A stretch of DNA of 64,000 bases from Bradyrhizobium lablabi (GTDB taxonomy: Bacteria; Pseudomonadota; Alphaproteobacteria; Rhizobiales; Xanthobacteraceae). The notes below the pieces were generated by a model. That model searched no databases and was not told the origin of the DNA. It worked only from the letters and a program-made list of their open reading frames with translations. A program made the translations under genes and the position numbers. Each line of letters begins with the position of its first letter. The stretch's first letter is position 1. Positions 31,145 through 52,098 of the stretch are shown here, one piece after another. The stretch spans positions 6,234,501 to 6,298,500 of the forward strand of contig NZ_LT670844.1 of the NCBI RefSeq assembly GCF_900141755.1. The letters are read 5' to 3'.

Positions 31145-31201
31145 TTGAACTAACCCTACGTTGGCGTTGATTGTTCCGGACGTGAAGACGAGCAGAGGTG
31201 A

Positions 31202-32092: not shown

Positions 32093-32124
32093 TGTTGCCT
32101 CAATCGATGGAGTGGATGGTTGGT

Positions 32125-32850: not shown

Positions 32851-33595
32851 GATACACCTCACGCGTTCGTTCGTCCGCGATCACAGTATCCCGATCGCCA
32901 TCCACAATCACGCGACCATAATTGAGCAGCGTTACGGTTTCGGCAAGGTCGAGCGCGGTATCCATGTCATGTTCGATCATGATCACGGTGGTTTCCCGCG
33001 GGATTGACGCGATCAGCGCCTTCACCTGGGCCCGCTCCGTGTTTGACAGGCCGGCCAAAGGTTCGTCCAGCAACAGCAGGCGCGGCTTTTGCGCAAGGGC
33101 CATTGCGAGTTCAACCCGGCGTTTCTCACCATAGGCGATGTCGGATACCGGATGTTCAGCCAGATGCAAAAGCCCGACCGCATCGAGGGTACGGCGGGCC
33201 TCGGTGGCGAGATCGCCATAGAATGACATTGGCCGCCACATCTGCCAGCGCGATGGCCGCAGACCGAGCAGGCCAAGGGTGACGTTGTGCTCGAGCGTAT
33301 CGCCTGAAAACAGCGTAATGATCTGGTAGGTTCGCGACAGTCCGAAATGCGCGCGTTTGTAGGGTGCCAATTGCGTCACGTCGGTGCCGAACAGCTTGAT
33401 CTGCCCCGAATTCGGCCGCATGTCGCCGCTGATCTGATTGAACAGTGTGGTCTTGCCGGCGCCATTCGGACCAATAATAAGGCGACGTTCACCGTGTCGT
33501 ATCGCCAGCGATACGCTCTGCGTTACCACCAGGCCACCGAACGCCTTTTTCAAGTCGATGACCTCAAGCGCATGCTCGGACGTCTGCGGGGTCAT
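32840..33595 (-). CDS. Branched-chain amino acid-type ABC transporter ATP-binding protein (LivG-like)
   Basis: The 251-residue ATPase has IIGPNGAGKTTLFNQISG near residue 36, the LivG signature YGEKRRVELAMALA near residue 152 and Walker B LLLDEPLAGLSNTER, followed by IMIEHDMDTAL. The MTPQTSE start at 33595 overlaps the permease stop by four bases (ATGA); a longer frame from 33703 overlaps the permease. Confidence 0.9.
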   Translation of the reverse strand: MTPQTSEHALEVIDLKKAFGGLVVTQSVSLAIRHGERRLIIGPNGAGKTTLFNQISGDMRPNSGQIKLFGTDVTQLAPYKRAHFGLSRTYQIITLFSGDTLEHNVTLGLLGLRPSRWQMWRPMSFYGDLATEARRTLDAVGLLHLAEHPVSDIAYGEKRRVELAMALAQKPRLLLLDEPLAGLSNTERAQVKALIASIPRETTVIMIEHDMDTALDLAETVTLLNYGRVIVDGDRDTVIADERTREVYLGA

Positions 33596-34527
33596 CGCGA
33601 TCCCCTGCGCAATGCGCTCGACAACTTGGTTATGCCCGGAACGATTCCGGTCGGCATAACCAGAACGATGAACACGAACACCAGGCCGAGCAGCATATTC
33701 CATCGTTCGATATAGGCCGATGCATAATTCTTCAATAACAGAACCAGTGCGGCACCGACGACCGGACCGCCAAGCGTTCCCGAGCCGCCGGCAATGACGC
33801 CGAGCAAGGCTTCAGCCGAGCTCGTGGTGGAGATCGACGTCGGGTGGATGTATTTATGATAATAGACGTAGAGCAATCCGGAGACGCCACCCCAGAAGCC
33901 GGCATAGGTGAAAGTGATCCATCGGATCATCCAGGGATTGAAGCCCAGCGCGGCCATCCGGCGCGACTGGTCGCGGACGCCTTTCAATGACGATCCGAAT
34001 GCCGAGGATACGAAGATCGTCATCATCAGGAAGGCAAACGTCGCCACAACCAGCGCGAACCAATAGAACGATACGGCGCTGTCGATCGAAATGCCGAACG
34101 GCATTGGCCGGGTCAGGCCGGCTATCCCATTGTCGCCATTGGTCACATTGGACATGCGATAGGCGAGCCCCCACAACACCTGCGACAGAGCCAGCGTGAT
34201 CATGAGAAAGCCCAGGCCCGTGGCGCGGAGTGCGATGACGCCGAAGCAGGCCGCCATCGCGGTAGTGCCGGTGATCGAGATGATCGCAGCCGCGCCATGA
34301 CTGAAACCGTATCGGCTTGTCAGCAGCGCTGAAATATAGGCTGCAACCCCGAGATAGGAGGCGTGTCCGAGCGACGTCATTCCGCCGAAACCGACCAGCA
34401 GGTTGAGGCTGAGGGCGAAAATCGAGGCGATCAAGATTTGGCTGGCGAGGTTGATGTAAAAATCGCCCGCAAAGAAGGGCGGGAGAAGAAACGATCCGGC
34501 AATCAGGAGCACGCCGATCCACTTCAT
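33592..34527 (-). CDS. Branched-chain amino acid-type ABC transporter permease (LivM-like)
   Basis: The 311-residue permease has eight or nine helices, the LivM-like start IFALSLNLLVGFGGMTSLGHASYLG split by TM segments, and the GVIAGGSGTLGGPVVGAALV block near residue 246. It overlaps the LivH-type gene by four bases. It pairs with that protein as the membrane channel. Confidence 0.9.
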   Translation of the reverse strand: MKWIGVLLIAGSFLLPPFFAGDFYINLASQILIASIFALSLNLLVGFGGMTSLGHASYLGVAAYISALLTSRYGFSHGAAAIISITGTTAMAACFGVIALRATGLGFLMITLALSQVLWGLAYRMSNVTNGDNGIAGLTRPMPFGISIDSAVSFYWFALVVATFAFLMMTIFVSSAFGSSLKGVRDQSRRMAALGFNPWMIRWITFTYAGFWGGVSGLLYVYYHKYIHPTSISTTSSAEALLGVIAGGSGTLGGPVVGAALVLLLKNYASAYIERWNMLLGLVFVFIVLVMPTGIVPGITKLSSALRRGSR

Positions 34528-35390
34528 GCGCCGACGCGCCCAAACAAGCCCTGAGGCCGAAATGCGATGACGAAGATCATCGGCAGGAAAAGGATGATGT
34601 AGGCCAGCTCCGGAAACAGCGCAGTTCCGAACGTATAGATGAAGCCGATGATGAAGCTGCCGATGAACGCGCCGAGCAGGCTCCCGATGCCTCCCAGAAT
34701 GACCACGATCAGCGCCAGCGGCAGCATGTCGGCATCAAGCCCGGGATAGGCGGAGAGAACGGGTCCCCCCAGCACGCCGCCGGCGCCGGCTATTCCCGCG
34801 CCCAGGCAAAACACGATCGTAAACAAATTCGAGACGGGGATGCCTACCGCGCGCGCCATCTGCCGGTCGTCGACGCCGGCGCGGATCATGGCGCCAAGCC
34901 GTGTCCGCTCCAGCAGGAAATACAGCACGATCGCAGCACCGATGGCTATTCCCACCAGAACCAGCCGATAGGTCGGAAAAACCAGACCGAACACCCGCGT
35001 CGGCGACTGCAGGTTTTGCGGTGTCGGGACAGGAATCGAGTCGCCGCCCCACAACATCAGGCACGCATCGGAGATGATGAAGGACATGCCGAGCGTAACC
35101 AGCACCTGACCGAGCGGATTGGCCTTCAGTCGGGTCAGCACCAGCCGCTCGAATAGACCGCCGATCGCCGCGACCGCAATTCCGGCGCCGAGCGCGGTCA
35201 CCCAGATGTTGAGGCCGTCCCAGGAACGCAGCGCGATCGCCCCGAAATAGGTCCCAAGCATGAAGAAGGCGCCGTGCGTCAGATTGGCGAGCCTCATCAG
35301 GCCGAAGATCAGTGAAAAGCCCGACGAGAGCAGAAACAACAGACCGCCGAGCGACAGGCTGTTGAGACCCTGGATGATCCAAAACTGCAT
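34524..35390 (-). CDS. Branched-chain amino acid-type ABC transporter permease (LivH-like)
   Basis: The 288-residue permease has about eight helices, GLMRLANLTHGAFFMLGTY near residue 30, RAGVDDRQMARAVGI near residue 170 and VVILGGIGSLLGAFIGS near residue 225, all typical of LivH. It starts 56 bases after the binding protein gene on the same strand. Confidence 0.9.
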   Translation of the reverse strand: MQFWIIQGLNSLSLGGLLFLLSSGFSLIFGLMRLANLTHGAFFMLGTYFGAIALRSWDGLNIWVTALGAGIAVAAIGGLFERLVLTRLKANPLGQVLVTLGMSFIISDACLMLWGGDSIPVPTPQNLQSPTRVFGLVFPTYRLVLVGIAIGAAIVLYFLLERTRLGAMIRAGVDDRQMARAVGIPVSNLFTIVFCLGAGIAGAGGVLGGPVLSAYPGLDADMLPLALIVVILGGIGSLLGAFIGSFIIGFIYTFGTALFPELAYIILFLPMIFVIAFRPQGLFGRVGA

Positions 35391-35446
35391 CGTTGGCCGA
35401 TCTGTTCGGAAAGTTGCACGACGCTTCCCCGCAACGGGAGCAGGAT

Positions 35447-36694
35447 TTACGGCTCCAGGTTTTTCGCCGGCGGATAGTCGCGCGAATAGACCGGATTCTT
35501 CAGGAATGCGGTCTCGTCATAAGTCCAGAACTGGCTGACGTCCGGATAGGTCTTGATGACCGAGTTAACCAGCCGCCCGTCGCTTCTTGTCACCTTGCGG
35601 ATATAGACATCGCCGATCGCATTTCCGAATTCATCGATTTTAATAAGACCGCGGATCGTTTCCACATTGCTGCCGCGGATCGCCGTCATCAGCGCCTTCT
35701 TGTCTTCCACATTTCCCTTCGTGGCCTTTATCGCAGCTTCCAGAACTTCGGCCGTGACGTAGGTCCCGCCGGCGTAATAGCCCGGATCGTATTTGAATTG
35801 TTTGCGAAATGCCGGCGCGAAGACCTTGTTGAGCGGATTGTCCAGTTCCGCCGAATACCAGCTCGTGGTCAAAATCCCCAACGCCTCGTCGCCCATGTTG
35901 CGAAGCACGGATTCATCGAGCGCCGTCATGCCGCCGATGACGGCCATCTTGTCCTTCAGGCCGTATTCGATGAATTGTCGAAGAAACCGGAATCCGTTCG
36001 AGCCGGCGGTCCCGAGGAAGATTGCATCGGCGCTCTTCACCTGGGCGACGTAGCTGCCGTAGTCCGGCGTCGCCAGCGGCGTGAAGATTTTTTGAATGAT
36101 CTTGCCGCCATTGTCCTCGAAGACGCGCTGAAAGCCGGCGCACATTTCGTGTCCATAAGCGAAATCGTCGGCAATAGTGACGATCTTCCTGTACTTCAAT
36201 TCCTTGGCGGCATAATCGGCAAGCGGGTAGGCGCATTGTGCCGATGTCGACGTCAGGCGCACGAACCATGGGCTTGGGTGCCGCTGGGTCATGTCCTCCG
36301 CCGCCGCGACGCCCAAGGTAGGAACTTCCTTTTCAGTGAAATAGTCCGCGATGGCCAGCGCCTCGAAGGCGGCAAGCGGGCCGATGACGCAGTGGACATT
36401 GTTCTTCTCGACCAGTTCCTGAGCCTTGGTGCGTGCTGTAGCGGGAACGCCGGCCGTGTCTGCAACAATCAATTCGACCTTGCGGCCCGCAAGCGTATTG
36501 TCGCGTTCCTTTAGAAACATCGTCATGGCAAGTTCCATGTCGATGCCGCCGGAAGCAAGTGGTCCGGTTTTGGCCGCCATCAAACCGACACGGATCGGCC
36601 CGCCTTCCTGCGCAAAGACGAGATTGGGGACCGCCATGCTGGCGATACCTGCGCCGGCAACGCTGCCGACAAATTGCCGTCGCGATAACGTCAT
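35447..36694 (-). CDS. Branched-chain amino acid-type ABC transporter substrate-binding protein
   Basis: The 415-residue protein starts with a Tat-like leader (S-R-R-Q-F-V-G, cleavage near V-F-A-Q) and has the type I periplasmic binding fold of LivJ-like proteins: RVGLMAAKTGPLASGG near residue 36 and FAYGHEMCAGFQRVF near residue 170. Such proteins in rhizobia often bind aromatic or short acids rather than amino acids. It heads the minus-strand operon ending with the amidohydrolase gene. A copy of the recurrent promoter sequence lies upstream at 36775. Confidence 0.88.
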   Translation of the reverse strand: MTLSRRQFVGSVAGAGIASMAVPNLVFAQEGGPIRVGLMAAKTGPLASGGIDMELAMTMFLKERDNTLAGRKVELIVADTAGVPATARTKAQELVEKNNVHCVIGPLAAFEALAIADYFTEKEVPTLGVAAAEDMTQRHPSPWFVRLTSTSAQCAYPLADYAAKELKYRKIVTIADDFAYGHEMCAGFQRVFEDNGGKIIQKIFTPLATPDYGSYVAQVKSADAIFLGTAGSNGFRFLRQFIEYGLKDKMAVIGGMTALDESVLRNMGDEALGILTTSWYSAELDNPLNKVFAPAFRKQFKYDPGYYAGGTYVTAEVLEAAIKATKGNVEDKKALMTAIRGSNVETIRGLIKIDEFGNAIGDVYIRKVTRSDGRLVNSVIKTYPDVSQFWTYDETAFLKNPVYSRDYPPAKNLEP

Positions 36695-36752
36695 TGAATC
36701 CTCCCCGGGACACTAAAACTGAATGTCCGCCGCGATTTTTGTTGCTTGAGGG

Positions 36753-36792
36753 ATTTATCGGACGGAAGTCATAAATGATCAAGTGATAACCA
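36753..36792 (-). promoter_or_regulatory. Recurrent promoter sequence, site C
   Basis: TGATCAAGTGATAACCA at 36776-36792 matches 15 of the first 18 bases of site A (37901). A related CGATAAAT element lies on the opposite strand at 36753-36760. Both sit upstream of the Liv-type binding protein gene. Operator function is inferred from recurrence. Confidence 0.4.
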
Positions 36793-36935
36793 TGCCATGG
36801 ACTTGGCGTGCCGGATATTTTGGCAGCGTCGCAAAGCGGGACAGCACGAAATCCCCGTGCGGCTTTGATGCACTGCGGTATTGCGCAGCGCGCGCCGATG
36901 ATCGCCCAACATCGAAGATCTTGCGGCGCGAACGC

Positions 36936-37838
36936 CTATTTCCGATTGCGACCGTCCGATTTGGGACCCGTCACAATCGTCTTCTTCAAAACCTCGAACA
37001 CCGCGGCCGTGTCCTGGTTGCCCAGTCCCATCGCCATCGCTTGCGCGTAGACGGGCTGGGTCAGGGTGAACAGCGGCGTCACACATCCGACGTCATCGGC
37101 AAATTCGGCGATGATCGCCATATCCTTCTTCCAGGTCGATACTTTCATCGTTGCAGGCTCATAAACGCCGTCGACCATCATCGGCGCGCGCATCTGAAAC
37201 ATCCGGGAGCCGCCGGCGCCCGGGCCGACCATCTCAACGACCATTTTCGGATCGAGCCCGGCGCGCTCCGCCAGGATCATCGCCTCGGCGGTCGCGACGT
37301 TGTGTATGGCCACCAGATGATTGGCGACGAATTTCATCCGGCTGCCATTGCCGTATTTACCAAGATCGGCGCTCTGCTTGGCGAAGTCGGCGAACAGGCT
37401 TTTGCATTGGGCAATGGCATTGCTGTCACCGCTGGCATAGATGACGAGATCACGATTCTTGGCCTGCGCGCCGGTTCCGCTAAGGGGACAATCCAGCGCG
37501 ATATGACCGGCTTTGGTCAGGATGTTTTCGAAGTTGAGCTTGTCGGCAAGAGTAAGCGTCGAGAGCTCGACCACAATCCGCGAAGGCTCACCGGTATTGG
37601 CGATCGCCCGCGCGACGTCCTCGACGGCTGCGGGCGTGGGAAGACTGGTCATGATGATCGGCGCGTCGCGCGCGACCTGACCGATGTCGGCGGCGATAGT
37701 CACGTTGGCAAGCCCAAGCTCGGCCCGTCGCGCCGCATCGATGTCGAAGCCGATGACCCGCCATCCGCGCTCGACGAGATTGCGGGCAATGGCACCTCCC
37801 ATGATCCCAAGCCCGATGATTCCAACGATCTTGTCCAT
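36936..37838 (-). CDS. 3-hydroxyisobutyrate dehydrogenase-type NAD(P) oxidoreductase
   Basis: The 300-residue enzyme has the dinucleotide motif GIIGLGIMGGAIARNL, the substrate motif CPLSGTGAQAKNRDL near residue 115 where the usual GG is altered, and a catalytic lysine in GNGSRMKFVANHLVA near residue 164. It is the second of three family members. It is transcribed from the divergent region with the GH3 gene and lies 241 bases upstream of the Liv-type operon, with site A in its upstream region. Confidence 0.86.
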   Translation of the reverse strand: MDKIVGIIGLGIMGGAIARNLVERGWRVIGFDIDAARRAELGLANVTIAADIGQVARDAPIIMTSLPTPAAVEDVARAIANTGEPSRIVVELSTLTLADKLNFENILTKAGHIALDCPLSGTGAQAKNRDLVIYASGDSNAIAQCKSLFADFAKQSADLGKYGNGSRMKFVANHLVAIHNVATAEAMILAERAGLDPKMVVEMVGPGAGGSRMFQMRAPMMVDGVYEPATMKVSTWKKDMAIIAEFADDVGCVTPLFTLTQPVYAQAMAMGLGNQDTAAVFEVLKKTIVTGPKSDGRNRK

Positions 37839-37900
37839 GAGAAATCACCTCTAAACTTAGCCGCGTCACGCGCCGCTCTAGGCCGTGTCCTGAATAACCG

Positions 37901-37927
37901 TTGATCAAGCGATAAACAATCATCAAG
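37901..37927. promoter_or_regulatory. Recurrent promoter sequence, site A
   Basis: This 27-base sequence begins TTGATCAAGCGATAAAC and ends ATCATCAAG. Bases 37902-37927 match site B (39441) at 22 of 26 positions. It lies between the divergent dehydrogenase and GH3 genes, about 65 bases before the dehydrogenase start. Outer TTGAT and ATCAA form a loose dyad. Confidence 0.5.
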
Positions 37928-38078
37928 TCGCCCCCGTTGGGGAGGGTTTCGACGATTTCAGGATTCTCATGCAGAAATTGTGCAGACGCACCCTCTGGGC
38001 TCGCATTTAACAGACAGGTTTGATACCGCCGATTGATCCGCGAATTCCTCGCGTCGACGCACACGATCGTCCAGTCAG

Positions 38079-39377
38079 ATGACAAAACTCTTTGGCACCA
38101 TTGCGCTCGGTATTCTCGGATTGGTGTTTCTTTCGGTAGGCATCAAAATCAATGAGCCCTATCTGATTTCGCTGCGCGGTTCGGGCGCCGTTGCGCTCTC
38201 TATCGCGAGCAATATTGTTTTCATGTTCCTGATCAGGCGGGGCTACTGGAACGGACGAGGTGCCCCGGGAAGACTGCTGATTTTGTTGTGGTGCTTGCCA
38301 TCATTGTCGATGCTGTACGCCTATGTTTCGTTTGAGGCCGGCAAACGAGGCGTCCTGCGAACTGACGTCGTGCGGGCGCATATTCTGGGGCGACATTTCG
38401 TCGTGGGTTATTCATCGTTCGATGAAGTCGCGCCGTTGGCGGAAAAAGGCCTGATATCGGGCGTCTACGTTTCCCGGCACAATGTCGCAGGGCGGACAAC
38501 CGAGGCGCTAAAGTCGGAGATTGCCGCATTGCAAGACAGGCGGCGCATCGCTGGTCTGCCGCCTTTGATTGTCGCCGCCGACCAAGAAGGGGGCATCGTG
38601 TCACATCTGTCGCCGCCATTGACGGCACTGCCCCCGCTATCCACCTTGGCGGGCTTGCCTGCGGACATTCGGGCAAAGAGAGCCGAAGAGTTCGGGCGCA
38701 TTCACGGGCAGGAATTGGCGGCGCTCGGCGTGAATCAAGATTTTGCACCGGTTTTGGACTTGCGGCCGGAGGCAAGCCACAACCGGTTTGATTTCAACAC
38801 ACTGATCAATCAGCGCGCGATTTCCGGCGACCCGGCCGCGGTAACCGATGTTGCGCTGGCCTATATACGCGGGCTCGAAGCGTCCGGTGTTGCGGCGACC
38901 GTGAAGCACTTCCCTGGATTGGGGCGTGTGCGCGCCGATACGCATCATTTCAACGCTGATTTGGACACTCCTTTAACGGTGCTTGAGGCATCCGACTGGC
39001 GCCCTTTCAGGGAGGTCCTGGCGGGTTCGCGGGCGCAACTCATGATCGGACATGTCACGCTGACCGCGGTCGACCCGGATCGCCCTGCATCGCACTCCAA
39101 ACGTATCGTCGACGAAATCATTCGCCAGAAATGGAATTACCAGGGCGTGATCATTACCGACGATCTGGTGATGGGTGCGATCTACCGCCACAACATCTGC
39201 ACGGCTGTCGTTGAGGCGCTCAACGCGGGCGTGGATTTGCTGCTTGTCGCTTTCGACGGCTCGCAATTCTATCGCATCTTTGCGTGTGCGTCGGACGCAT
39301 TTGGCCAGGGAAAGCTTGATACTGTGATGCTGCGCGAGAGCGAGGCGCGGCTGGAGCGGACGCTCCCGTCAGATTGA
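38079..39377 (+). CDS. Glycoside hydrolase family 3 protein, membrane-anchored NagZ-like
   Basis: The 432-residue protein has three predicted membrane helices near residues 5-22, 34-52 and 66-84, with a basic loop between the second and third, which puts the catalytic part outside the cytoplasm. The GH3 domain shows AADQEGGIV near residue 168, KHFPGLG near residue 275 with ADTHH after it, as in the Asp-His dyad of beta-N-acetylglucosaminidases, and the nucleophile in IITDDLVMG near residue 361. NagZ itself is cytosolic and shorter. A role in cell-wall or chitin-fragment hydrolysis is likely. Confidence 0.83.
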   Translation: MTKLFGTIALGILGLVFLSVGIKINEPYLISLRGSGAVALSIASNIVFMFLIRRGYWNGRGAPGRLLILLWCLPSLSMLYAYVSFEAGKRGVLRTDVVRAHILGRHFVVGYSSFDEVAPLAEKGLISGVYVSRHNVAGRTTEALKSEIAALQDRRRIAGLPPLIVAADQEGGIVSHLSPPLTALPPLSTLAGLPADIRAKRAEEFGRIHGQELAALGVNQDFAPVLDLRPEASHNRFDFNTLINQRAISGDPAAVTDVALAYIRGLEASGVAATVKHFPGLGRVRADTHHFNADLDTPLTVLEASDWRPFREVLAGSRAQLMIGHVTLTAVDPDRPASHSKRIVDEIIRQKWNYQGVIITDDLVMGAIYRHNICTAVVEALNAGVDLLLVAFDGSQFYRIFACASDAFGQGKLDTVMLRESEARLERTLPSD

Positions 39378-39409
39378 AGGGGAGATTTATTGATATGGTC
39401 GATGGGCCC

Positions 39410-39438
39410 TTGACGGGCATCTTCGGCCGCGCCTTAAT
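39410..39438 (+). promoter_or_regulatory. Possible sigma-70 promoter of monooxygenase operon
   Basis: TTGACG (39410-39415) and CTTAAT (39433-39438) are 17 bases apart, matching the housekeeping consensus at five and four of six positions. Transcription would start near 39445, inside site B. Confidence 0.45.
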
Positions 39439-39440
39439 TA

Positions 39441-39467
39441 GTGATCAGGCGATAAACGATCGTCGAG
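39441..39467 (+). promoter_or_regulatory. Recurrent promoter sequence, site B
   Basis: This sequence begins GTGATCAGGCGATAAAC and is the closest relative of site A. All internal differences are A-to-G changes. It covers the predicted transcription start of the operon that includes the TetR gene, the place expected for an autoregulated repressor site. Confidence 0.5.
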
Positions 39468-39591
39468 CGGCTTCGGCCGGTCAAGCACGTTCGTCGCGAT
39501 GCGGAAAAGCCAAGTGGCCGACTGTCCCCAGGCATCCAGGTCGGCCGCATCTCGAGAGCGCAAGACCGGCGAGATAGCGAGGAACGCTAAA

Positions 39592-40824
39592 ATGGCAGGC
39601 CTTGGTCGGAAGCCAAACACGAGCCCGTTTCCGCAGCCCGATGCGGACGACCCCGCCTATGCTGCCATGATTGCGCGCGCCAAGGCGCTGATTCCGCGCT
39701 TTCGCGATCGCGCCTCTCGAACTGAAGAGTTGCGGCACTTGCCATCGGAGACCGAGCGCGATTTGCATGAAGCGGGCTTGTTCAGGATCGTGCAGCCGAA
39801 GCGCGTGGGAGGCTCGGAATTCGATTATGTCGCGCTGGTCGATTGTGCCGATGCCATCGGTCAGGCCGACGCGTCGGTGGCCTGGAATCTCGCCAATCTC
39901 GCGAGCCACCACTGGATGCTGGCGATGTTCGACAGCCGCGCGCAGGATCTGGTCTGGAGCAAGGACGCCAACGTCCTGATTGCGTCCTCCTTCATTTTCC
40001 CGGCTGGACGCGCGAGGAAAGTCGACGGCGGATATGTCCTGCGCGGCAGCTGGCCGTTCTCGTCGGGAGTGGACTCCAGCGAATGGAATATGCTCGCCAG
40101 CGTCGTTTCATCCGACGACGAAGCCGACGGCATCGAGTATCGTATCTTTCTGCTCAACAGAAGCGACTACAGAATCAAGGACACATGGAATTCGGCCGGA
40201 TTGGGGGGAACGGGATCGAACGATGTTGAGGTCAATGATGCCTTTGTTGCCGAGCCGATGACGGTGGCCGTGAACGACCTCGGCGGCGGCCCGACGCCTG
40301 GAAGCGCCGTCAATCCGAATGCGCTTTATGCGCTGCCGGTGTTCTCATTGTTTCCTTACGTACTATCCGGTGTCGCCTTGGGAAACGCACAGGCCTGTCT
40401 GGACGACTACGTCGAGGTCGCGCGACATCGCGCCTCGACCTACAACCGTGCGAAACTCGGCGATATGCAGAGCACACAAATCAAGATCGCGGAGGCTTCC
40501 GCCAAGATCGATGCGGCTCGTCTGATCATGCGCTCGACATGCATCGAGGCTTTGGCCGAGGCCAGGCGCGGTCGCCTTCCGGACATCGCCGCCAAGACCA
40601 AGACCCGCCGCGACGGGGCATATGCCGTCAATCTTTGTACCGAAGCGGTGTCGCTGTTGTTTGCGGCAAGCGGTGCGCGGGGATTGTTCACGTCGGCTGC
40701 GTTGCAGCGTCAGTTCCGAGACGCCCACGCAATCAATTCGCACCTTGCATTCAATTTCGATGCGGCTGGCACGAATTATGGGCGCGTTGCACTCGGCCTG
40801 CCGTCAGAAAATCTGACGCTTTGA
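39592..40824 (+). CDS. Acyl-CoA dehydrogenase-fold flavin monooxygenase (HsaA/HpaH-like)
   Basis: The 410-residue protein has the acyl-CoA dehydrogenase fold of two-component flavin hydroxylases: DLHEAGLFRIVQPKRVGGSE near residue 54, SVAWNLANLASHHWMLAM near residue 93, a GTGSNDVEV block near residue 205 and FTSAALQRQFRDAHAINSHLAF near residue 375. Family members such as HsaA hydroxylate aromatic rings with reduced flavin supplied by a partner. The partner reductase gene follows after nine bases. ATG 39592 is preceded by GAGG. The substrate is unknown. Confidence 0.85.
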   Translation: MAGLGRKPNTSPFPQPDADDPAYAAMIARAKALIPRFRDRASRTEELRHLPSETERDLHEAGLFRIVQPKRVGGSEFDYVALVDCADAIGQADASVAWNLANLASHHWMLAMFDSRAQDLVWSKDANVLIASSFIFPAGRARKVDGGYVLRGSWPFSSGVDSSEWNMLASVVSSDDEADGIEYRIFLLNRSDYRIKDTWNSAGLGGTGSNDVEVNDAFVAEPMTVAVNDLGGGPTPGSAVNPNALYALPVFSLFPYVLSGVALGNAQACLDDYVEVARHRASTYNRAKLGDMQSTQIKIAEASAKIDAARLIMRSTCIEALAEARRGRLPDIAAKTKTRRDGAYAVNLCTEAVSLLFAASGARGLFTSAALQRQFRDAHAINSHLAFNFDAAGTNYGRVALGLPSENLTL

Positions 40825-40833
40825 GGCCGGCGG

Positions 40834-41403
40834 ATGACCGACGCGCCAAAGCATCCGACTAGTCTGGATCCGGCTAAGGAGCTGGCCAGCGACAGCTCGA
40901 CAATCGATCCCAGGGATTTCCGCAACGCGCTCGGCACTTACGCGACTGGTGTCACCATCATCACGGCTGCCGGCGCCGACGGCAAACCTTATGGGCTGAC
41001 CTGTAATTCGTTTGCCTCGGTCTCGCTGAACCCGCCGCTCGTGCTCTGGAGCTTGGGGACGTTTTCGCAGGCGCTGACGGCCTTCCAGAACGCCAGCCAC
41101 TTCGCGGTAAACGTGCTGGGCGCCTCGCAGCAAGCGCTCGCGACCAAATTCTCAAAATCCTCGGAAGACAAATTCGCCGGGGTCGAGTGGACGCCGGGTC
41201 TTGGCAATGCCCCCCTTCTTGCGGACAGCGTCGCAAATTTTCAATGTCGGGCCGCCAATCGGTACTATGGCGGCGACCACGTCATCTTCCTTGGCGCGGT
41301 CGAGGCGTATTGCTACAACCGGAAAGAGCCGCTGTTGTTTGCGCGGGGCGGTTACGGACAATTTCTCGCGGGTGACGGCATGTCATCGGCCGTCAAGCCA
41401 TGA
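40834..41403 (+). CDS. Flavin reductase family protein (HpaC/RutF-like)
   Basis: The 189-residue protein has the FMN-binding split-barrel fold: DFRNALGTYATGVTIIT near residue 28, GLTCNSFASVSLNPPLVLWSL near residue 53 and ASHFAVNVL near residue 89, ending in a GGDHVIFLGAVEAY strand near residue 146. It should reduce FMN or FAD with NAD(P)H for the monooxygenase just upstream. It overlaps the TetR gene by four bases (ATGA). Confidence 0.9.
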   Translation: MTDAPKHPTSLDPAKELASDSSTIDPRDFRNALGTYATGVTIITAAGADGKPYGLTCNSFASVSLNPPLVLWSLGTFSQALTAFQNASHFAVNVLGASQQALATKFSKSSEDKFAGVEWTPGLGNAPLLADSVANFQCRAANRYYGGDHVIFLGAVEAYCYNRKEPLLFARGGYGQFLAGDGMSSAVKP

Positions 41404-42107
41404 GAAGGAAAGCACCGCCCAAGCGTGCTCGCGCAAAACAAAAGCGATTGTCGCCGGACGATCGCCGCAAGGACTTCGTTGCCAAGGCGACAGAGTTTTT
41501 CTCGGAACAAGGATTTGACGGCGGGACGCGCGATTTGGCGCGCCGGCTCGGCGTCACCCAGCCGCTGCTGTACCGCTACTTTCCAAGCAAGGATGATTTG
41601 ATCAAGGAAGTCTATCGCACGGTCTATCTCGAGCCGTTCGATCCGGGCTGGGAGAAGCTCCTCGCCGATCGCTCCCGGCCGATCCGCGATCGGCTGCAGG
41701 AATTCTATAACGCCTACACCGACGTCATCTTCACCCGCAAATGGCTCCGCATTTATCTGTATTCCGGCCTGAAGGGGCTCGACATCAACCGCTGGTATGT
41801 TGGCGTGGTGCGGGACAAGATTCTTTCGCGTATCATCCGGGAATGCCGGCATGAAGCGGGACTTCCGGTGCAAAGCAAGCCCACCCCGCCGGAGCTCGAA
41901 ATGGCATGGGTGTTTCACAGCGGAATTTTTTATTACGGGGTTCGCAAATACATCTACGAATCCCCTGTGCTCGAAGACAAGGAGCAGATGATCGGCGATG
42001 CGCTGGACGCTTTCCTGGCCGGTTTCGAGCGGGTCTTTGCTGCGCCGGCCGCGCCAAGGCGCGCGCCGGCCGCGCCAAGGCGCGCGCCGATGAAGGCTGT
42101 GGGGTAG
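41400..42107 (+). CDS. TetR family transcriptional regulator
   Basis: The 235-residue protein has an N-terminal TetR helix-turn-helix: FFSEQGFDGGTRDLARRLGV and TQPLLYRYFPSKDDLIKEVY near residues 37-76. The basic leader (RRKAPPKRARAKQKR) may add DNA contacts. The long C-terminal domain would bind a ligand. The tail ends with two copies of a seven-residue APAAPRR unit, encoded by a 21-base tandem repeat. It is coupled to the flavin reductase gene, so it probably regulates its own operon and likely the neighbours. Confidence 0.9.
   Translation: MRRKAPPKRARAKQKRLSPDDRRKDFVAKATEFFSEQGFDGGTRDLARRLGVTQPLLYRYFPSKDDLIKEVYRTVYLEPFDPGWEKLLADRSRPIRDRLQEFYNAYTDVIFTRKWLRIYLYSGLKGLDINRWYVGVVRDKILSRIIRECRHEAGLPVQSKPTPPELEMAWVFHSGIFYYGVRKYIYESPVLEDKEQMIGDALDAFLAGFERVFAAPAAPRRAPAAPRRAPMKAVG
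42042..42081 (+). repeat. 21-base tandem repeat in TetR gene
   Basis: Two copies of a unit starting GCGCCGGCCGCGCCAAGGC, with period 21, encode the APAAPRR repeats at the C terminus. Slippage at this site would lengthen or shorten the tail without a frameshift. Confidence 0.8.
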
Positions 42108-42136
42108 CCGGCTTATCGCGCGGCTTCCGCCTACGA

Positions 42137-43015
42137 TTATTGCGGTTTCGACAATTCGGCCCGGTACCAATCGCCGATCTCGCTCGCCGTCATCAGGGCA
42201 ACGCCTTCGTGGCCGATGACATAGTCGAGCAACGCTTCCAGATATTTGATTCGGTGCGGGACGCCGGTGATGTAGGGGTGAATCGAGATCGCCATGATCC
42301 GGGCATTACTGGCGCCCTCAAGGTACAAGCGGTCGAACTGATCGGTGCAGCGCTTCAAGAACTGCTCGGACGGCAGATGCTGTAGCGCATGGATGACGAT
42401 GTCATTGGTCTCGACCGAGTACGGAATCGTGGTGATGGTGCCGTAAGGCGTCGAGATATCCTGCGGAAGATCGTCGATCACCCAGTCCGCCACATATTCG
42501 ATGCCGTTGCGACGCAACAGGTCGAGGGTCTCATTGGTTTCCGTCAGTCCCGGACTTTCCCACGATCGCGGCGGCTTGCCGGTGAAGTTTGCAATGGTGT
42601 CGACCGCCCGTTTGATCGCGTCGGCCTGATTGTCCAATTTATGCATCGGTCCCTGGACGAATCCATGACCCATGAACTCAAAGCCGGCCTCGCGCGCGAC
42701 CGATGCGACGCGAGGATAAGAGCTGCACACATTTGCGTTCAGCGCCAGCGTCACCGGCATGTTGCGGTCGGTCAGCGCCTTGAACTGCCGCCAGAAACCG
42801 GCGCGCATTCCATATTCATGCCACGACCAGTTTGGCACATCAGGCAATAGGGGCTGCCCCATTGGCGGGCTCAGTACGGTTCGCGGCATCGCATTTTCGA
42901 TCCGCCACTCCTCGACGTTGAGGATGACCCATACCGCGAGCTTTTTGCCGCCGGGCAGCCTGAGTTTCGGGCGGTCGATTTGCGCCTGGTAGGGAATGCG
43001 ATCGGTCAGAGCCAA
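42137..43015 (-). CDS. Polysaccharide deacetylase family protein, PuuE-like
   Basis: The 292-residue protein has the NodB/PuuE-type fold: LAVWVILNVEEWRIEN near residue 25, WSWHEYGMRAGFWRQFKAL near residue 63, a NANVCSSYPRVAS block near residue 93 and FEFMGHGFVQG near residue 112 replacing the usual His triad of chitin deacetylases. The group includes PuuE-type allantoinases acting on cyclic amides. It is 12 bases after the LLM gene on the same strand, so both are likely one operon. Confidence 0.8.
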   Translation of the reverse strand: MALTDRIPYQAQIDRPKLRLPGGKKLAVWVILNVEEWRIENAMPRTVLSPPMGQPLLPDVPNWSWHEYGMRAGFWRQFKALTDRNMPVTLALNANVCSSYPRVASVAREAGFEFMGHGFVQGPMHKLDNQADAIKRAVDTIANFTGKPPRSWESPGLTETNETLDLLRRNGIEYVADWVIDDLPQDISTPYGTITTIPYSVETNDIVIHALQHLPSEQFLKRCTDQFDRLYLEGASNARIMAISIHPYITGVPHRIKYLEALLDYVIGHEGVALMTASEIGDWYRAELSKPQ

Positions 43016-43027
43016 GGGACACCTTAC

Positions 43028-44152
43028 TCAAAGTGGATTTGCGGACTGTTCCACAACGTTGAACCGTTTTGGGGTGCCGGCGTTGACGCGCGGCATGACT
43101 TTTTCGGCCATCAGGATCATGGACTGCCGCCCAAGCTCGCGGTCCATCCAGTCCTTGCCGGCGTATAAGAGCGTGCCGAACTCGCCGACCTCGTCCTGAA
43201 AGGCCAGCAACTGATCCGCGACGCTGTCAGGCGTCCCATGAATGATCAGCCTGTCGCAGATCATTTCCAGCGTTACCTCGTCGTCAGGCTGGTCGCGGCG
43301 GGTTTTGAACAACTCGATGCGGCCGTTGTTTTTCAGCTTGGTGAACAGCGAGCGATAGTAATAGACATAAGGCCCTTCCGGGTCGGTCGCGTAGGCTTTT
43401 GCTGTCGCTGCGTCCTTGGCGACAAAGACGCTCTTGGCGACCCGCCAATTTGCGGGGTCGGCGGGGCGGCCGCCGCGCTCGCAGCCTTCGACATATTTCG
43501 GCCAGTGGCTTTTTACCCAGGCCGGCATCAGGAAGTTTGCCGAAATTGGTTCCCAGCCGCGCGCGGCAGCCTCGGTGACGCCCTTCGAGAACGGCGCCAC
43601 GGCGGTCACGACGACCGGCGGATGCGGCCGCTGCAGGGGCTTTGCGATAAATCCCTGGCCGATATCCTTGATCAGCGTCTTTTGCGTCGAGATGTTCCAG
43701 TATTTTCCCTGGAAGTTATAGGGCGGCTCGCCGGCCCAGATATCGAGAACCTGATTGATCGATTCAAGAAACATCTCGTTGCGATTGGCATCCAGATTGC
43801 CGAACAACTCGGCATCCGACAGAAGCCCACCAGGGCTTATTCCGAAAATCAAGCGCCCGTCGAGCATGTGATCGAGCATCGCCATGGAGGCCGCGACGGT
43901 GGCAGGATGAGTGTTCGGCATATTGATGGTGCCGGTTCCGAGCTTGATCTGCCTGGTCGCGGCTGCAATCCACGCAAGGAATGCGATGCAAGAGGTGATG
44001 TTCTCGGCCTTGTCGGTGACATGTTCGCCAACGTAGGCCTCGGTAAACCCCAGTTCGTCGGCGAGCAGGAAGGCTTCACGGTCTTCATTGAGCGACCGCA
44101 GCCAATCCTTGTCGAGAGGGTGGATTGGCATCGTAAAGAAACCCAGATTCAT
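43028..44152 (-). CDS. LLM class flavin-dependent oxidoreductase
   Basis: The 374-residue protein is a bacterial luciferase-like FMN oxidoreductase: GFFTMPIHPLD near residue 4, LADELGFTEAYVGEHV near residue 29, TGTINMPNTHPATVAASMAMLDH near residue 75 and GRLIFGISPGG near residue 102. GGGAGGAG lies just upstream of ATG 44152; an in-frame start at 44281 would add an unlikely leader. It resembles monooxygenases of the limonene monooxygenase type. It precedes the deacetylase gene and is divergent from the molybdenum hydroxylase operon. Confidence 0.87.
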   Translation of the reverse strand: MNLGFFTMPIHPLDKDWLRSLNEDREAFLLADELGFTEAYVGEHVTDKAENITSCIAFLAWIAAATRQIKLGTGTINMPNTHPATVAASMAMLDHMLDGRLIFGISPGGLLSDAELFGNLDANRNEMFLESINQVLDIWAGEPPYNFQGKYWNISTQKTLIKDIGQGFIAKPLQRPHPPVVVTAVAPFSKGVTEAAARGWEPISANFLMPAWVKSHWPKYVEGCERGGRPADPANWRVAKSVFVAKDAATAKAYATDPEGPYVYYYRSLFTKLKNNGRIELFKTRRDQPDDEVTLEMICDRLIIHGTPDSVADQLLAFQDEVGEFGTLLYAGKDWMDRELGRQSMILMAEKVMPRVNAGTPKRFNVVEQSANPL

Positions 44153-44242
44153 CGCCTGCTCCTCCCTGGGGCCGATTTGATGCAAGCCAAACCGTGCGTC
44201 GTTCACGACGATATCACAAGTCCAAAAGTCGAATCTCGCGAA

Positions 44243-44269
44243 ATAATCGGTCGATAAACAAACTTGACC
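44243..44269 (+). promoter_or_regulatory. Recurrent promoter sequence, site D
   Basis: This stretch matches site A at about 17 of 27 bases, with an exact CGATAAACAA core at 44252-44261. It lies between divergent LLM and molybdenum hydroxylase genes. It is the least similar of the four copies. Confidence 0.4.
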
Positions 44270-44280
44270 TTTGGTGGTCA
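44265..44280. promoter_or_regulatory. Inverted repeat in divergent promoter region
   Basis: TGACC (44265-44269) and GGTCA (44276-44280) are perfect arms around six bases, partly overlapping site D. It lies 57 bases before the hydroxylase FAD subunit gene and could be a repressor site. Confidence 0.35.
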
Positions 44281-44336
44281 CCGCCGTCTAATCCTCGCAA
44301 AATGCGCCTAAATCGGGCCGGGGAAGGTCACGCCAA

Positions 44337-45218
44337 ATGAAGGCCTCGGCTTTCAATTATGCACGGGCAACCAGTGTTTTGAACGCGTTGGAGTTGCTGG
44401 TCGCGCACGGAGAGAAGGCCAAGGTGCTGTCAGGCGGGCAGAGCCTGATGCCCGCCCTGAATTTGCGCTTGATCTATCCCGAACTTGTTGTCGATATCGG
44501 GGGGCTCGCCGAACTGCGGGGCATCGCAGTTGCGGATAATGTCCTTACCATCGGCGCGCTGACGCGCCATGTTGATCTCGCAAGGTCTCCCGAAATCGCC
44601 GCGCACGCCCCGTTGCTGACGGAAGCCATTGCCCATGTCGCGCATCCGGCGATCCGCAACCGGGGCACAATCGGCGGCAGCCTTGCGCACGCCGATCCTG
44701 CCTCCGAGCTGCCGGCCTGCATGCTCGCACTGGATGCGACGATTGTCGTTCGCGGTCAGGCCGGCGAGCGACGGATTCCTGCCGGGGATTTCTTTACCGG
44801 AATCTATGAGACCGCTTTGTCGGCGCAAGAAATTCTGATCGCCGTTGAACTGCCAATCGCACAGAGAAATTCCGTGCACTTCTTTTACGAATTCGCGCGC
44901 CGGCACGGCGACTACGCTCTTACGGGACTGGCCGCACAGGCGACCGTGGCGGGCGGCGCCTTCACCGGGCTTCGCATGGCCTATTTTGCCGTCGGCGACC
45001 GGCCGCTACTGGCCAGGGCGGCAGAGCCGCTGCTCAACGCCATCGTGACGCCTGCGCTGTTGTCGGAAGCATCGAAAGCGCTAGCCGAAGAGCTCGATCC
45101 CCAGGACGATCAACAGGCGTCCGCTTCGATGCGCCGGCATCTCGCGAAGGTGTTGATGGTGCGTTGCGTGTCGGCACTGCTCGGCCGCCCCGATCTCAAT
45201 GCCGGGGGAGCTGTTTGA
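44337..45218 (+). CDS. Molybdenum hydroxylase FAD-binding subunit (CoxM/xanthine dehydrogenase-type)
   Basis: The 293-residue protein has the FAD-binding motifs of the medium subunit: AKVLSGGQSLMPALNLRL near residue 29, LTIGALTRHVDLARS near residue 70 and HPAIRNRGTIGGSLAHADPASE near residue 101. It passes electrons between the iron-sulfur subunit and an acceptor. It is followed by the iron-sulfur and molybdenum subunits in the order M-S-L. Confidence 0.9.
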   Translation: MKASAFNYARATSVLNALELLVAHGEKAKVLSGGQSLMPALNLRLIYPELVVDIGGLAELRGIAVADNVLTIGALTRHVDLARSPEIAAHAPLLTEAIAHVAHPAIRNRGTIGGSLAHADPASELPACMLALDATIVVRGQAGERRIPAGDFFTGIYETALSAQEILIAVELPIAQRNSVHFFYEFARRHGDYALTGLAAQATVAGGAFTGLRMAYFAVGDRPLLARAAEPLLNAIVTPALLSEASKALAEELDPQDDQQASASMRRHLAKVLMVRCVSALLGRPDLNAGGAV

Positions 45219-45226
45219 CGGCCCTA

Positions 45227-45700
45227 ATGCCAATCTCCCTCGAGGTGAACGGCGAGCGCATCGAAGCGCAGGTTCTGCCACGTCTTAACCTTGCAGACTT
45301 CTTGCGCGAGCACCTGCAACTGACGGGAACGCATGTCGGCTGTGAGCACGGGGTTTGCGGCGCGTGTACGGTACGGGTCGATGGCGAAATCGTTCGGTCC
45401 TGCCTGACGCTCGCGGTACAGATGCATGGCGCATCCGTCGAAACCATCGAGGGATTGTCCGACAGCGGCGAAATTGCAGATCTGCAGGCCGCCTTTCGCG
45501 ATCGCAATGCCTTGCAATGCGGCTATTGCACGCCGGGCATGCTGATGGCCGCGCAGGACCTGCTGAAGCAGAATGCCGAACCGGACCGGGAGCGGATACG
45601 CGAGCATCTTTCCGGCAATTACTGCCGCTGCACCGGTTACCAGGCCATTATCGATGCGGTCGAGAACACGGCGCGGGCGCGCGCGGGGCGCAGGTCATGA
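45227..45700 (+). CDS. Molybdenum hydroxylase [2Fe-2S] subunit (CoxS-like)
   Basis: The 157-residue protein carries two [2Fe-2S] sites: plant-type cysteines at residues 39, 44, 47 and 59, and the second cluster in CGYCTPG near residue 97 and CRCTGY near residue 134. TTG 45215 overlaps the preceding stop with GGGGGAG four bases upstream and is an alternative to ATG 45227. The stop overlaps the large subunit start (ATGA). Confidence 0.9.
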   Translation: MPISLEVNGERIEAQVLPRLNLADFLREHLQLTGTHVGCEHGVCGACTVRVDGEIVRSCLTLAVQMHGASVETIEGLSDSGEIADLQAAFRDRNALQCGYCTPGMLMAAQDLLKQNAEPDRERIREHLSGNYCRCTGYQAIIDAVENTARARAGRRS

Positions 45701-48090
45701 CCGCTGCATCGACCAATCCGGAAGGCCTCTCGGAGCTCGATCGGCCGAACTCGTATATCGGCAAAATCGTTCCACGGCCGAACCTCGAGCGGCTGATGCA
45801 GGGACGCGGGCTCTACGTCAGCGACATCGAGCTTCCGCGGATGGGTCATGTGGTGTTCCTGCGCTCACCCCATGCGCATGCGAAAATCATCGGCATTGAC
45901 GCGGCCGAAGCGCGGCGCACGCCCGGCGTCATCGCCATCGTGACCGGCCCAGAGCTTAGCGCTGTGATCACGTCGTGGGTTGGCGTGTTGTCGCACCTGA
46001 AAGGCCTTAAATCCGCGCCGCAACATGCCATCGCAATCGATCGCGTCTGCTGGCAAGGGGAGGCTGTCGCCGCCATCGTGGCGACCAGCCGAGCCGTAGC
46101 CGAGGACGCAGCGGAGATCGTCAGGGTCGAGTACGAAGAATTGGAAGCCGTGACGGACATGCGCACCGCGCTCGATCCGGGAACGCCTGTGATTCATCCC
46201 GCGCTCGGCGACAATCTGGCCTTTGAGCGAAACCTTGACGCTGGCGCAGTCGATGCGGCGTTTGCCAGCTCCGACGCGGTGGTCGAGGCGGATTTTGTCT
46301 TCGGCCGGCACACCGGCGTGACGCTGGAGCCGCGCGCGGTGGTGGCGGACTGGAACGCGGCCGAGGCAAGGTTGACGATCTACCAGGGCACGCAGGCGCC
46401 CCACATGGTGCAGAATATCGCAGCGCTCCATCTCGGGCTTGAAGAGGCGCAGGTTCGCGTGGTCTGCAAGGACGTCGGCGGCTCCTTCGGCATCAAGGTT
46501 CACATATATGCCGATGAAATGGCGACTTATGCGCTGTCAAAACTGTTGCGGCGGCCGATTAAATTCGTCGCCGACCGGGTCGAAAGCTTCAACACCGATA
46601 TTCACGCCCGCGATCATCGCTGCAAGGGAAAGATCGGCGTCAAGCGCGACGGGACAATTACGGCGTTCGAGATCGACGATCTCACCGGCATCGGTCCCTA
46701 TTCAATGTATCCGCGCACCAGCGCGATTGAAGCCAATCAGGTCGTCAATCTTGTCGGCGGGCCCTATGTGACGAAAAACTATCGCGCGCGGGCGCGCGTC
46801 GTGTTCCAGAATAAAAATGTGATGTGCCAGTATCGCGCCGTCGGCCACCCGATCGCGTGCTCGGTGACGGAAGGCCTGGTCGATCTTGCAGCGTCGAAAA
46901 TCGGGATGGATCCGGTGGAAATCCGCCGCCGCAATCTCATCGCCGACGAGGCCTATCCCTGCGTTTCGCCCTCCGGCCTCCGATTTGAGCAGTTGTCGCA
47001 TCACGCGGCGATGACCAAGTTGCTGGCGATGATGGATTACGACAGGCTACGCGCCGAGCAGGCGGCCTTGCGCAAGAATAACATTCATCGCGGCATCGGC
47101 ATTGCGAGCTTCATCGAGGTCACCAACCCAAGCGCGGCGTTTTATGGCGTCGGCGGCGCGCGTATTTCGTCGCAGGATGGCGTTGCCGTGCGACTCGACG
47201 CGCAAGGCTCCGTGATCTGCCAGACCAGCATCACCGAGCAGGGGCAGGGCTCGGAATCGCTGACCGCGCAAATCGTGGGCAGTGTGCTCGGGGTCTCGAT
47301 GGAGCGCGTCCGTGTCATTCTCGGCGATACCGACAACACGCCCTATGGCGGCGGCACCTGGGCCTCGCGCGGTGCCGGAATTGGTGGCGAAGCCGCGTTG
47401 CAAGCCGCGAAGATCCTGCGCAAGAACATCCTCGATGTCGCAGCCGCCATTCTGCAAGCCTCACCCGCCGAACTCGACATCGCCAACAATGCGGTTGTGA
47501 ACGCAAGCGACGGATCGCCGCGCATTGAGCTTCGCGAGCTCGCCAGGATCGTTTATTTCCGTCCCGATACGCTTCCGCCGGGCATTCAGCCGGAGCTGAT
47601 GGCGACGCGCCATTTCGTGCCCCGCGAATATCCGTTCGCCTTCACCAATGGCGTCCAGGCTTCCTGGCTCGAGGTCGACACCGACACCGGCTTCGTAAAG
47701 CTGCTCCGGCATTGGGTAGTCGAGGATTGCGGCACCATCATCAACCCGCAGCTGGTCGACGAGCAAATCCGGGGCGGCGTCGTGCAGGGCCTGGGTGCGG
47801 CGTTGTTCGAGAAATGCATCTACGATGAGCGGGGGCAACTGACCAACGCTAACATGGCCGATTATCTGGTTCCGATGTCCGGCGAAATGCCCGATATTGA
47901 CGTCGGGCACGTGGTGTCGCCGACATCCGAGACGGAATTGGGGGCGAAGGGCGCAGGCGAAGCCGGGACGGCGGCGGCCGCGGCGGCGGTGGCCAACGCG
48001 GTTAACGATGCACTCAGGCCGTTTGGTGCAATAATTACCGAGATTCCGTTGACGCCGCAGGTTATCCTGACGGCCTTGGGGCGAATCTGA
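45697..48090 (+). CDS. Molybdenum hydroxylase large subunit (CoxL/xanthine dehydrogenase-type)
   Basis: The 797-residue protein binds the molybdopterin cofactor. Family blocks are GRGLYVSDIELP near residue 36, KDVGGSFGIKVHIYADE near residue 258 and WASRGAGIGGEA near residue 552, and the catalytic glutamate lies in GAKGAGEAGT near residue 755. The active-site loop reads QYRAVGHPIA at residues 378-387, rather than the AYRGAGRPEA of many form II members or the CSFR of carbon monoxide dehydrogenases, so it is not a CO oxidiser. The substrate is probably an N-heterocycle or aldehyde. Confidence 0.9.
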   Translation: MTAASTNPEGLSELDRPNSYIGKIVPRPNLERLMQGRGLYVSDIELPRMGHVVFLRSPHAHAKIIGIDAAEARRTPGVIAIVTGPELSAVITSWVGVLSHLKGLKSAPQHAIAIDRVCWQGEAVAAIVATSRAVAEDAAEIVRVEYEELEAVTDMRTALDPGTPVIHPALGDNLAFERNLDAGAVDAAFASSDAVVEADFVFGRHTGVTLEPRAVVADWNAAEARLTIYQGTQAPHMVQNIAALHLGLEEAQVRVVCKDVGGSFGIKVHIYADEMATYALSKLLRRPIKFVADRVESFNTDIHARDHRCKGKIGVKRDGTITAFEIDDLTGIGPYSMYPRTSAIEANQVVNLVGGPYVTKNYRARARVVFQNKNVMCQYRAVGHPIACSVTEGLVDLAASKIGMDPVEIRRRNLIADEAYPCVSPSGLRFEQLSHHAAMTKLLAMMDYDRLRAEQAALRKNNIHRGIGIASFIEVTNPSAAFYGVGGARISSQDGVAVRLDAQGSVICQTSITEQGQGSESLTAQIVGSVLGVSMERVRVILGDTDNTPYGGGTWASRGAGIGGEAALQAAKILRKNILDVAAAILQASPAELDIANNAVVNASDGSPRIELRELARIVYFRPDTLPPGIQPELMATRHFVPREYPFAFTNGVQASWLEVDTDTGFVKLLRHWVVEDCGTIINPQLVDEQIRGGVVQGLGAALFEKCIYDERGQLTNANMADYLVPMSGEMPDIDVGHVVSPTSETELGAKGAGEAGTAAAAAAVANAVNDALRPFGAIITEIPLTPQVILTALGRI

Positions 48091-49393: not shown

Positions 49394-49403
49394 CGTCGCG
49401 AAC

Positions 49404-49430
49404 GATGTGTGCCCGCCTCGGGCACACATC
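49404..49430 (+). promoter_or_regulatory. Hairpin between binding protein and permease genes
   Basis: GATGTGTGCCCG (49404-49415) and CGGGCACACATC (49419-49430) form a perfect twelve-base stem with a CCT loop. It could protect the upstream message or partly stop transcription, giving more binding protein than permease, a usual pattern in ABC operons. Confidence 0.6.
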
Positions 49431-49447
49431 GACTTTTGGGGGAACGC

Positions 49448-50332: not shown

Positions 50333-50349
50333 AGGTGAAATCAAGGGGC

Positions 50350-52094: not shown

Positions 52095-52098
52095 ACGG

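Follow-up and report, generated by a model that had tools for sequence, protein, structure and literature searches.

A TetR-type regulator and four near-palindromic candidate operators in a putative catabolic cluster of Bradyrhizobium lablabi

The genome of Bradyrhizobium lablabi examined here (GCF_900141755.1) is a single 7.9 Mb contig, from which a stretch of 64,000 nucleotides starting at position 6,234,501 was analysed; we refer to this whole stretch as the window, and coordinates are given within it unless stated otherwise. It holds a cluster of putative uptake and breakdown genes in which a short near-palindrome recurs four times (operators 1 to 4), together with tetR, a gene encoding a TetR-type regulator. 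Comparison with related genomes makes it very probable that this TetR (41400..42107) binds the four near-palindromes as a dimer and controls, as a single local regulon, both the operon that encodes it and the adjoining operons for uptake and breakdown. The features concerned are listed here, with operator scores in bits.

30071..36694, minus strand: putative target operon encoding a Liv-type importer (parts at 35447-36694 and 32125-35390, minus strand), a second dehydrogenase (31202-32092) and an ACMSD-like decarboxylase
36776..36791, plus strand: operator 1, TGATCAAGTGATAACC, about 80 bp upstream of the importer binding-protein gene; 24.7 bits
36936..37838, minus strand: 3-hydroxyisobutyrate-dehydrogenase-like oxidoreductase
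37902..37917, plus strand: operator 2, TGATCAAGCGATAAAC, ahead of the minus-strand dehydrogenase gene and possibly also of the glycosyl hydrolase family 3 (GH3) gene; 32.0 bits
38079..39377, plus strand: GH3 gene, between operators 2 and 3
39442..39457, plus strand: operator 3, TGATCAGGCGATAAAC, preceding the monooxygenase-reductase-tetR operon; 26.2 bits
39592..40824, plus strand: two-component flavin monooxygenase, HsaA/HPAH C2-like oxygenase (start chosen by us)
40834..41403, plus strand: flavin reductase partner
41400..42107, plus strand: TetR regulator of 235 aa (Pfam TetR_N), recognition helix Q54-PLLYR-Y60 with T53 ahead
42137..44152, minus strand: putative target operon encoding an LLM monooxygenase and a PuuE-like protein (polysaccharide deacetylase fold)
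44244..44259, plus strand: operator 4, TAATCGGTCGATAAAC, in the gap that separates the divergent LLM and molybdenum hydroxylase operons; 34.6 bits
44264..44292, plus strand: probable promoter of the hydroxylase operon (TTGACC at 44264-44269, 17 bp, TCTAAT at 44287-44292), visible in the consensus of 56 loci
44337..48090, plus strand: putative target operon encoding a CoxM/S/L-type molybdenum hydroxylase
48140..52803, plus strand: second Liv-type importer, downstream and in the same direction

The scores derive from a matrix of 71 distinct sites lying outside the mapped genes of the tetR-bearing loci described below; because the matrix was trained on these same loci, the scores describe conservation and are no test of it. 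TetR is the sole regulator among the 28 open reading frames (ORFs) scanned between 27732 and 53962. The cluster looks catabolic, and from the enzyme types we would guess at an N-heterocycle or cyclic amide as its substrate.

All four copies lie where a preliminary description of this DNA had placed them, and the identities it gave are borne out by eye count (22 of 26 bases between 37902-37927 and 39442-39467, 15 of 18 for operator 1, and an exact CGATAAACAA shared by operator 4). In place of the unit of about 27 bases that it proposed, the conserved part is a near-palindrome of 16-18 bp, TNATC-RNNY-GATAAMC, with intergenic copies at 36776, 37902, 39442 and 44244. Searched with up to three mismatches, TGATCAAGCGATAAAC has three matches in the window (36776, 37902 and 39442), a number reached in 1 of 100 dinucleotide shuffles; the fourth copy at 44244, TAATCGGTCGATAAAC, has the common core and reveals the near-palindrome as the real unit. 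All four copies are intergenic on the premise that the LLM gene begins with the ATG at 44152, a start picked by eye with GGGAGGAG ahead of it; a longer ORF starting with GTG reaches 44281. The operators precede the importer operon, a dehydrogenase gene, the monooxygenase operon and the divergent LLM and hydroxylase operons; the preliminary description does not mention the GH3 gene between operators 2 and 3. This gene is rare in relatives, being found in one of 66 tetR loci (L061) and one of another 40 loci (L156). Several relatives have one operator between divergent dehydrogenase and monooxygenase genes in place of the operator-GH3-operator arrangement, and by eye the flanks of operator 2 look like the lone divergent operator in relatives that lack GH3.

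A consensus promoter scan of 36500-44500 returned two promoter-like sites (shuffle mean 3.0), none of them at the operators, and the -35 and -10 assignments thus rest on reading by eye and, for the hydroxylase promoter, on conservation. On this basis operator 1 has a possible -35 element, TTGATC, on the minus strand, and operator 3 directly follows a possible -10 element (TTAATT, 39434-39439). Operator 4 is separated by 4 bp from the hydroxylase -35 element downstream of it and is centred at about -48 from the assumed start, an arrangement that recurs in relatives.

In the B. lablabi genome itself, TNATCNNNNGATAAMY has eight exact matches, four of which are the cluster sites, and 147 matches at up to one mismatch against 44 for a reversed control; the 16-mer of the earlier reader gave 51 matches at up to three mismatches against 18 for its reversed control. 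As TNATCNNNNGATAAMY was derived from the four sites, these counts are not independent of them, and the case rests on the comparative evidence. Many equally good copies inside unrelated coding regions, which the preliminary description had named as the observation that would count against it, were not seen in the part tested: scoring covered 52 match loci (30 from the 16-mer search and 22 more from the TNATCNNNNGATAAMY search), and only 1 of the 48 non-cluster loci exceeded 20 bits. This best non-cluster copy (26.5 bits, genome positions 4480394-4480409, L007) lies upstream of an ABC transporter ATPase gene, named by eye. Other copies scored 19.5 bits before a glycosyltransferase-like gene (L015), 17.9 bits within a long ORF (L021), both by eye, and 17.8 bits before an unidentified ORF (L009).

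The N-terminal helix-turn-helix domain of the window's TetR protein matches TetR_N (PF00440) with 53 bits against a cut-off of 24. A predicted model is all-helical, with ten helices including the C-terminal domain and a mean predicted local distance difference test score (pLDDT) of 83, in the standard TetR fold; its helices include 43-50 and 54-60, and its best PDB matches are TetR-family chains with template modelling (TM) scores of about 0.5-0.6. None of the eight NCBIfam equivalogs listed (RutR, FasR, AcuR and others) reached its cut-off, the best being FasR with 33.8 against 330 bits; RutR gave 20.8 against 368. A palindrome near the regulator's own operon, as expected of this family, is present in the form of operator 3, the predicted operator upstream of the tetR operon.

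Searching GTDB genomes with the TetR protein returned 66 loci. We kept 64 of them (L061-L124) and set aside L125 and L126, which are short matches of low identity without the cluster. Comparison of these loci shows that the sites are conserved: the palindrome recurs in the Liv/dehydrogenase, dehydrogenase/monooxygenase and LLM/hydroxylase gaps. The hydroxylase operator scores at least 30 bits in all 56 loci scored, scoring having dropped eight of the 64 (five without the gene, and L116-L118 below the identity limit). Within 760 bp before the monooxygenase gene, a site of at least 20 bits is found in 52 of 61 relatives, three loci having been dropped where the gene or its upstream sequence was missing. 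The importer site scores at least 25.7 bits in all seven relatives with an adjacent Liv gene, and the core of operator 1 is identical in all seven.

The motif also depends on tetR in the genomes compared. In a set of 265 genomes of the genus, 251 have the monooxygenase (E up to 1e-120) and 67 an orthologous tetR, comprising 65 at 72% identity or more and two partial matches. Seventy-seven genomes contain the strict motif TRATCRNNYGATAAAC and four its reversed control pattern; the motif is present in 66 of the 67 genomes with a tetR orthologue versus 11 of the 184 with the monooxygenase and no tetR orthologue. Among these 11, three (G117, G173 and G223) have the motif next to the monooxygenase cluster, seven have it on another contig or far away, and for one (G216) the place of the monooxygenase was not listed.

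We sampled 20 of the 184 tetR-less monooxygenase loci, a non-random choice comprising those of G117, G173 and G223 and others drawn mostly from the highest identities. In 15 of the 20, the gap between the reductase and PuuE-like genes is about 50 to 210 bp, which leaves no room for tetR. Loci L149-L154, L157-L161, L164 and L166-L168 have no tetR between the flavin reductase and PuuE-like genes and retain most of the other cluster genes. Sixteen of the 20 loci could be scored for the hydroxylase operator, which falls to 20.3 bits or less in 13 and stays at 26 bits or more in three; in all 13 with a decayed operator, the adjacent -35 element TTGACCTTT is unchanged. A monooxygenase site of at least 20 bits is present in 3 of the 20, a difference from the tetR-bearing loci that is significant (61 versus 20 loci, both strands, P = 8e-8). 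An earlier comparison of 14 versus 9 loci, from which a protein-match-start filter had removed most loci, gave P = 0.16.

We then considered TetR proteins 34-69% identical to the window's TetR, taken with their surroundings. Counting 88 distinct proteins (close orthologues L061-L115 and L119-L124 left out) and palindromes within 1500 bp at up to one mismatch, 66 have one of four palindromes nearby and 22 have none. In each of the 66 the best match is, or ties with, the palindrome of the protein's own helix class, outright in 63 and by a tie in three, the latter being QPL loci with two tied palindromes that were counted for the class palindrome. QPL helices (class 1; TQPLLYRYF or near variants) go with TTTATC-N4-GATAAA in 34 of 41 proteins, TQ[SA]L helices with TTGATC-N4-GATCAA in 16 of 25, [TA]HS helices with TGAAAGC-N4-GCTTTCA in 14 of 18, and QPA helices (TQPAIYRHF) with AGTTAT-N6-ATAACT in both proteins; two HAL proteins have none of the four under the same limits. 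The palindrome is perfect in 33 of the 66, 20 of them QPL. One of the 34 QPL loci also matches the TGAAAGC palindrome at one mismatch, and a second palindrome type is absent from all Q[SA]L, HS and QPA loci. Block shuffles of the relatives' regions yielded the class palindromes in at most 0.1 loci per class. The operator type changes four times on the TetR tree, which included the helix columns.

With close orthologues included, 28 of 88 class-1 proteins have TTTATC-N4-GATAAA at one mismatch within 1500 bp, because in the orthologues the site takes the T(G/A)ATC form and mostly lies at a greater distance from tetR. Seventeen of these same 88 have TTGATC-N4-GATCAA, five of the six shown being the hybrid TTTATC-N4-GATCAA, and three have the TGAAAGC palindrome, two of which resemble the hydroxylase coding start by eye. 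An unbiased survey of inverted repeats in the 450 bp upstream of tetR genes revealed TGAAAGC-N4-GCTTTCA for the [TA]HS class. The repeats that it gave for the TQPLLYRYF class (14 of 49) are not the operator, which the survey missed because the window's orthologues have tetR as the third gene of its operon. The [TA]HS[AV]I-helix relatives with TGAAAGC-N4-GCTTTCA nearby are L188-L193, L197, L198, L201-L205 and L234, and of these at least L188 also has another CoxMSL-type hydroxylase and a binding-protein gene next to it. A second TetR group, 43-46% identical (L169, L174-L177 and L179-L187), has two palindromes in tandem ahead of tetR, spaced by about 50 bp.

An out-of-sample test, with the rule fixed beforehand and all 21 loci of a class-level draw scored at up to one mismatch, found the predicted palindrome in 6 of 11 class-1 loci (10 distinct proteins, two loci being one gene) versus 0 of 10 with other helices. 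One of the six matches (L247) ties with TTGATC-N4-GATCAA, and a shuffle control for the class-1 palindrome, run late with 20 shuffles each, expects no such locus. The Q[SA]L rule failed out of sample (0 of 8 at up to one mismatch, 2 of 8 at two), and the draw held no [TA]HS member. This test thus confirms the class-1 rule alone; for the other classes, we chose the palindromes with the data already in view.

By alignment with the TetR sequence, R44, Q54, P55 and L56 of the window's protein presumably correspond to Arg28, Gln38, Pro39 and Thr40, and the distance of 10 residues between R44 and Q54 agrees with that between Arg28 and Gln38. Because half-sites were selected for resembling the class palindrome, uniformity within a class is partly by construction, and it is the difference between classes that counts. 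R44 goes with G at +2.5 in 63/68, 32/32 and 28/28 half-sites, and H44, a class comprising two proteins of one genome, with A in 3/4. Q54 goes with A at +3.5 (65/68, 31/32 and 4/4) and H54 with C (28/28). At +5.5, P55 goes with A (65/68 and 4/4), and S/A55 with C in the Q[SA]L class (32/32) and with T in the HS class (28/28).

For TetR, PMC7102968 describes Arg28 and Gln38 as the sole side chains that form hydrogen bonds to bases, G at +2 and A at +3 of tetO, in a wording that leaves the pairing of residue and base implicit, and states that specificity is governed by Gln38, Pro39 and Thr40. For AmtR, a model and mutants described in PMC2723105 pair the equivalent of Gln38 with an A and that of Arg28 with a G; AmtR has His at the latter position, and the same source reports that this G is unconserved in AmtR sites. 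The bases that differ between our classes are, as far as sequence comparison goes, those contacted by the equivalent TetR and AmtR residues, a fit that was noticed post hoc.

The preliminary description had proposed that TetR binds all four sites, and the comparison supports this: presence with tetR, decay without it, and same-helix relatives, many of them in other neighbourhoods, tie the sites to this TetR, beyond the genes alone. Several observations nonetheless weigh against it. The genomes counted are related to one another, and the counts are therefore not independent; G114 has tetR yet no strict motif; 9 of the 61 tetR-bearing relatives have no 20-bit site upstream of the monooxygenase; and operator 4 lies outside the classical position of a repressor site. 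In the helix series, 18 of the 34 class-1 relatives with TTTATC-N4-GATAAA also match TTGATC-N4-GATCAA at up to one mismatch, and a phylogenetic pair test of two traits had for either one only three independent pairs on supported branches, too few for significance. Finally, G117, G173 and G223 hold sites beside the cluster without an orthologous tetR.

These last three genomes would suit a different regulator, encoded elsewhere, that binds the sites while tetR is a passenger of the cluster. We consider this quite improbable, as the motif tracks tetR and not the monooxygenase, and TetR relatives in other neighbourhoods have the same palindrome near their own genes; moreover G223 (L151, L171), which keeps both operators, has elsewhere in its genome a 53% identical TetR relative of the same helix class (L171) that might serve its sites. 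The repeats adjoin possible -35 and -10 elements, and could in principle be conserved promoter elements themselves (sites of a sigma factor or general activator); this is scarcely credible given their dyad symmetry, their few copies genome-wide, and the loci without tetR, in which the hydroxylase -35 element stays while the palindrome decays. Binding by TetR might also be limited to operators 3 and 4, operators 1 and 2 being remnants of rearrangement such as the GH3 insertion. Operator 1 is the weakest of the four (24.7 bits, with C where A is usual) and operator 2 is perhaps a duplicate, and yet the conserved core of operator 1 in the relatives with an adjacent gene and the 32 bits of operator 2 make this unlikely.

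If TetR binds all four operators, its mode of action may differ among them. Operators 1-3 overlap or abut a possible -35 element, spacer or start point, which would fit simple repression relieved by a compound of the pathway. Operator 4, directly upstream of the hydroxylase -35 element, could serve repression of the divergent LLM gene, hinder the polymerase or allow activation. The comparisons show that the sites are conserved, that they depend on tetR and that helix and operator match; binding, the dimer, the sign of control, the inducer and the pathway substrate are what we infer. A broader reading, to which we would give an even chance, joins a recognition code in one TetR subfamily with repression of three promoters and activation of the hydroxylase promoter by this TetR. 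In such a code, two base-reading residues would have changed singly, with the operator following at the bases touched: R44 would pair with G and H44 with A at +2, Q54 with A and H54 with C at +3, and, among Q54 proteins, P55 with A and S/A55 with C at +5.

A search of the open-access literature by titles and abstracts, with subscription papers mostly outside it, returned no description of this regulator, operator or cluster. Judged from sequence, the regulon appears new and local, ordinary in kind, unusually well evidenced, and accompanied by a natural specificity series. The natural experiment of the missing tetR and the helix-operator series raise it above the routine. An uncharacterised cluster, present in many Bradyrhizobium and Afipia genomes, gains a regulator-operator pair that comparison strongly supports. 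Built into a reporter, the predicted pair could help to identify the compound consumed by the cluster, and the series of relatives makes operator choice by TetR proteins testable with two or three point changes. The code, if true, would be a readable one covering a group of TetR regulators, and the window's protein would be its reference member.

Among known systems, the tetracycline repressor TetR shares with the present case a half-site with a GATA core (tetO TCTATCATTGATAGG, PMC9736018), and R44 and Q54 of the window's protein occupy the places of Arg28 and Gln38, the sole TetR side chains that hydrogen-bond bases (PMC7102968). Unlike in tetO, four bases and not three separate TATC from GATA in all four sites, the predicted targets here are catabolic and uptake genes and there a drug pump, and the NCBIfam TetR model matches the window's protein only over residues 23-75. 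AmtR of Corynebacterium glutamicum is likewise TetR-type, and its Gln53 (TetR Gln38) reads an A; its His43 at the position of Arg28, with the G reported as unconserved there, parallels the H44 relatives found here (PMC2723105). It differs in its consensus (tttCTATN6AtAGat/aA), its role in nitrogen control and its weak similarity to the window's protein (24.5 bits). NicR2 of Pseudomonas putida has another operator sequence and belongs to a nicotine pathway, and resembles the present case as a TetR-type regulator that, according to PMC6550519, represses a catabolic cluster through operators overlapping the -35/-10 elements at two promoters.

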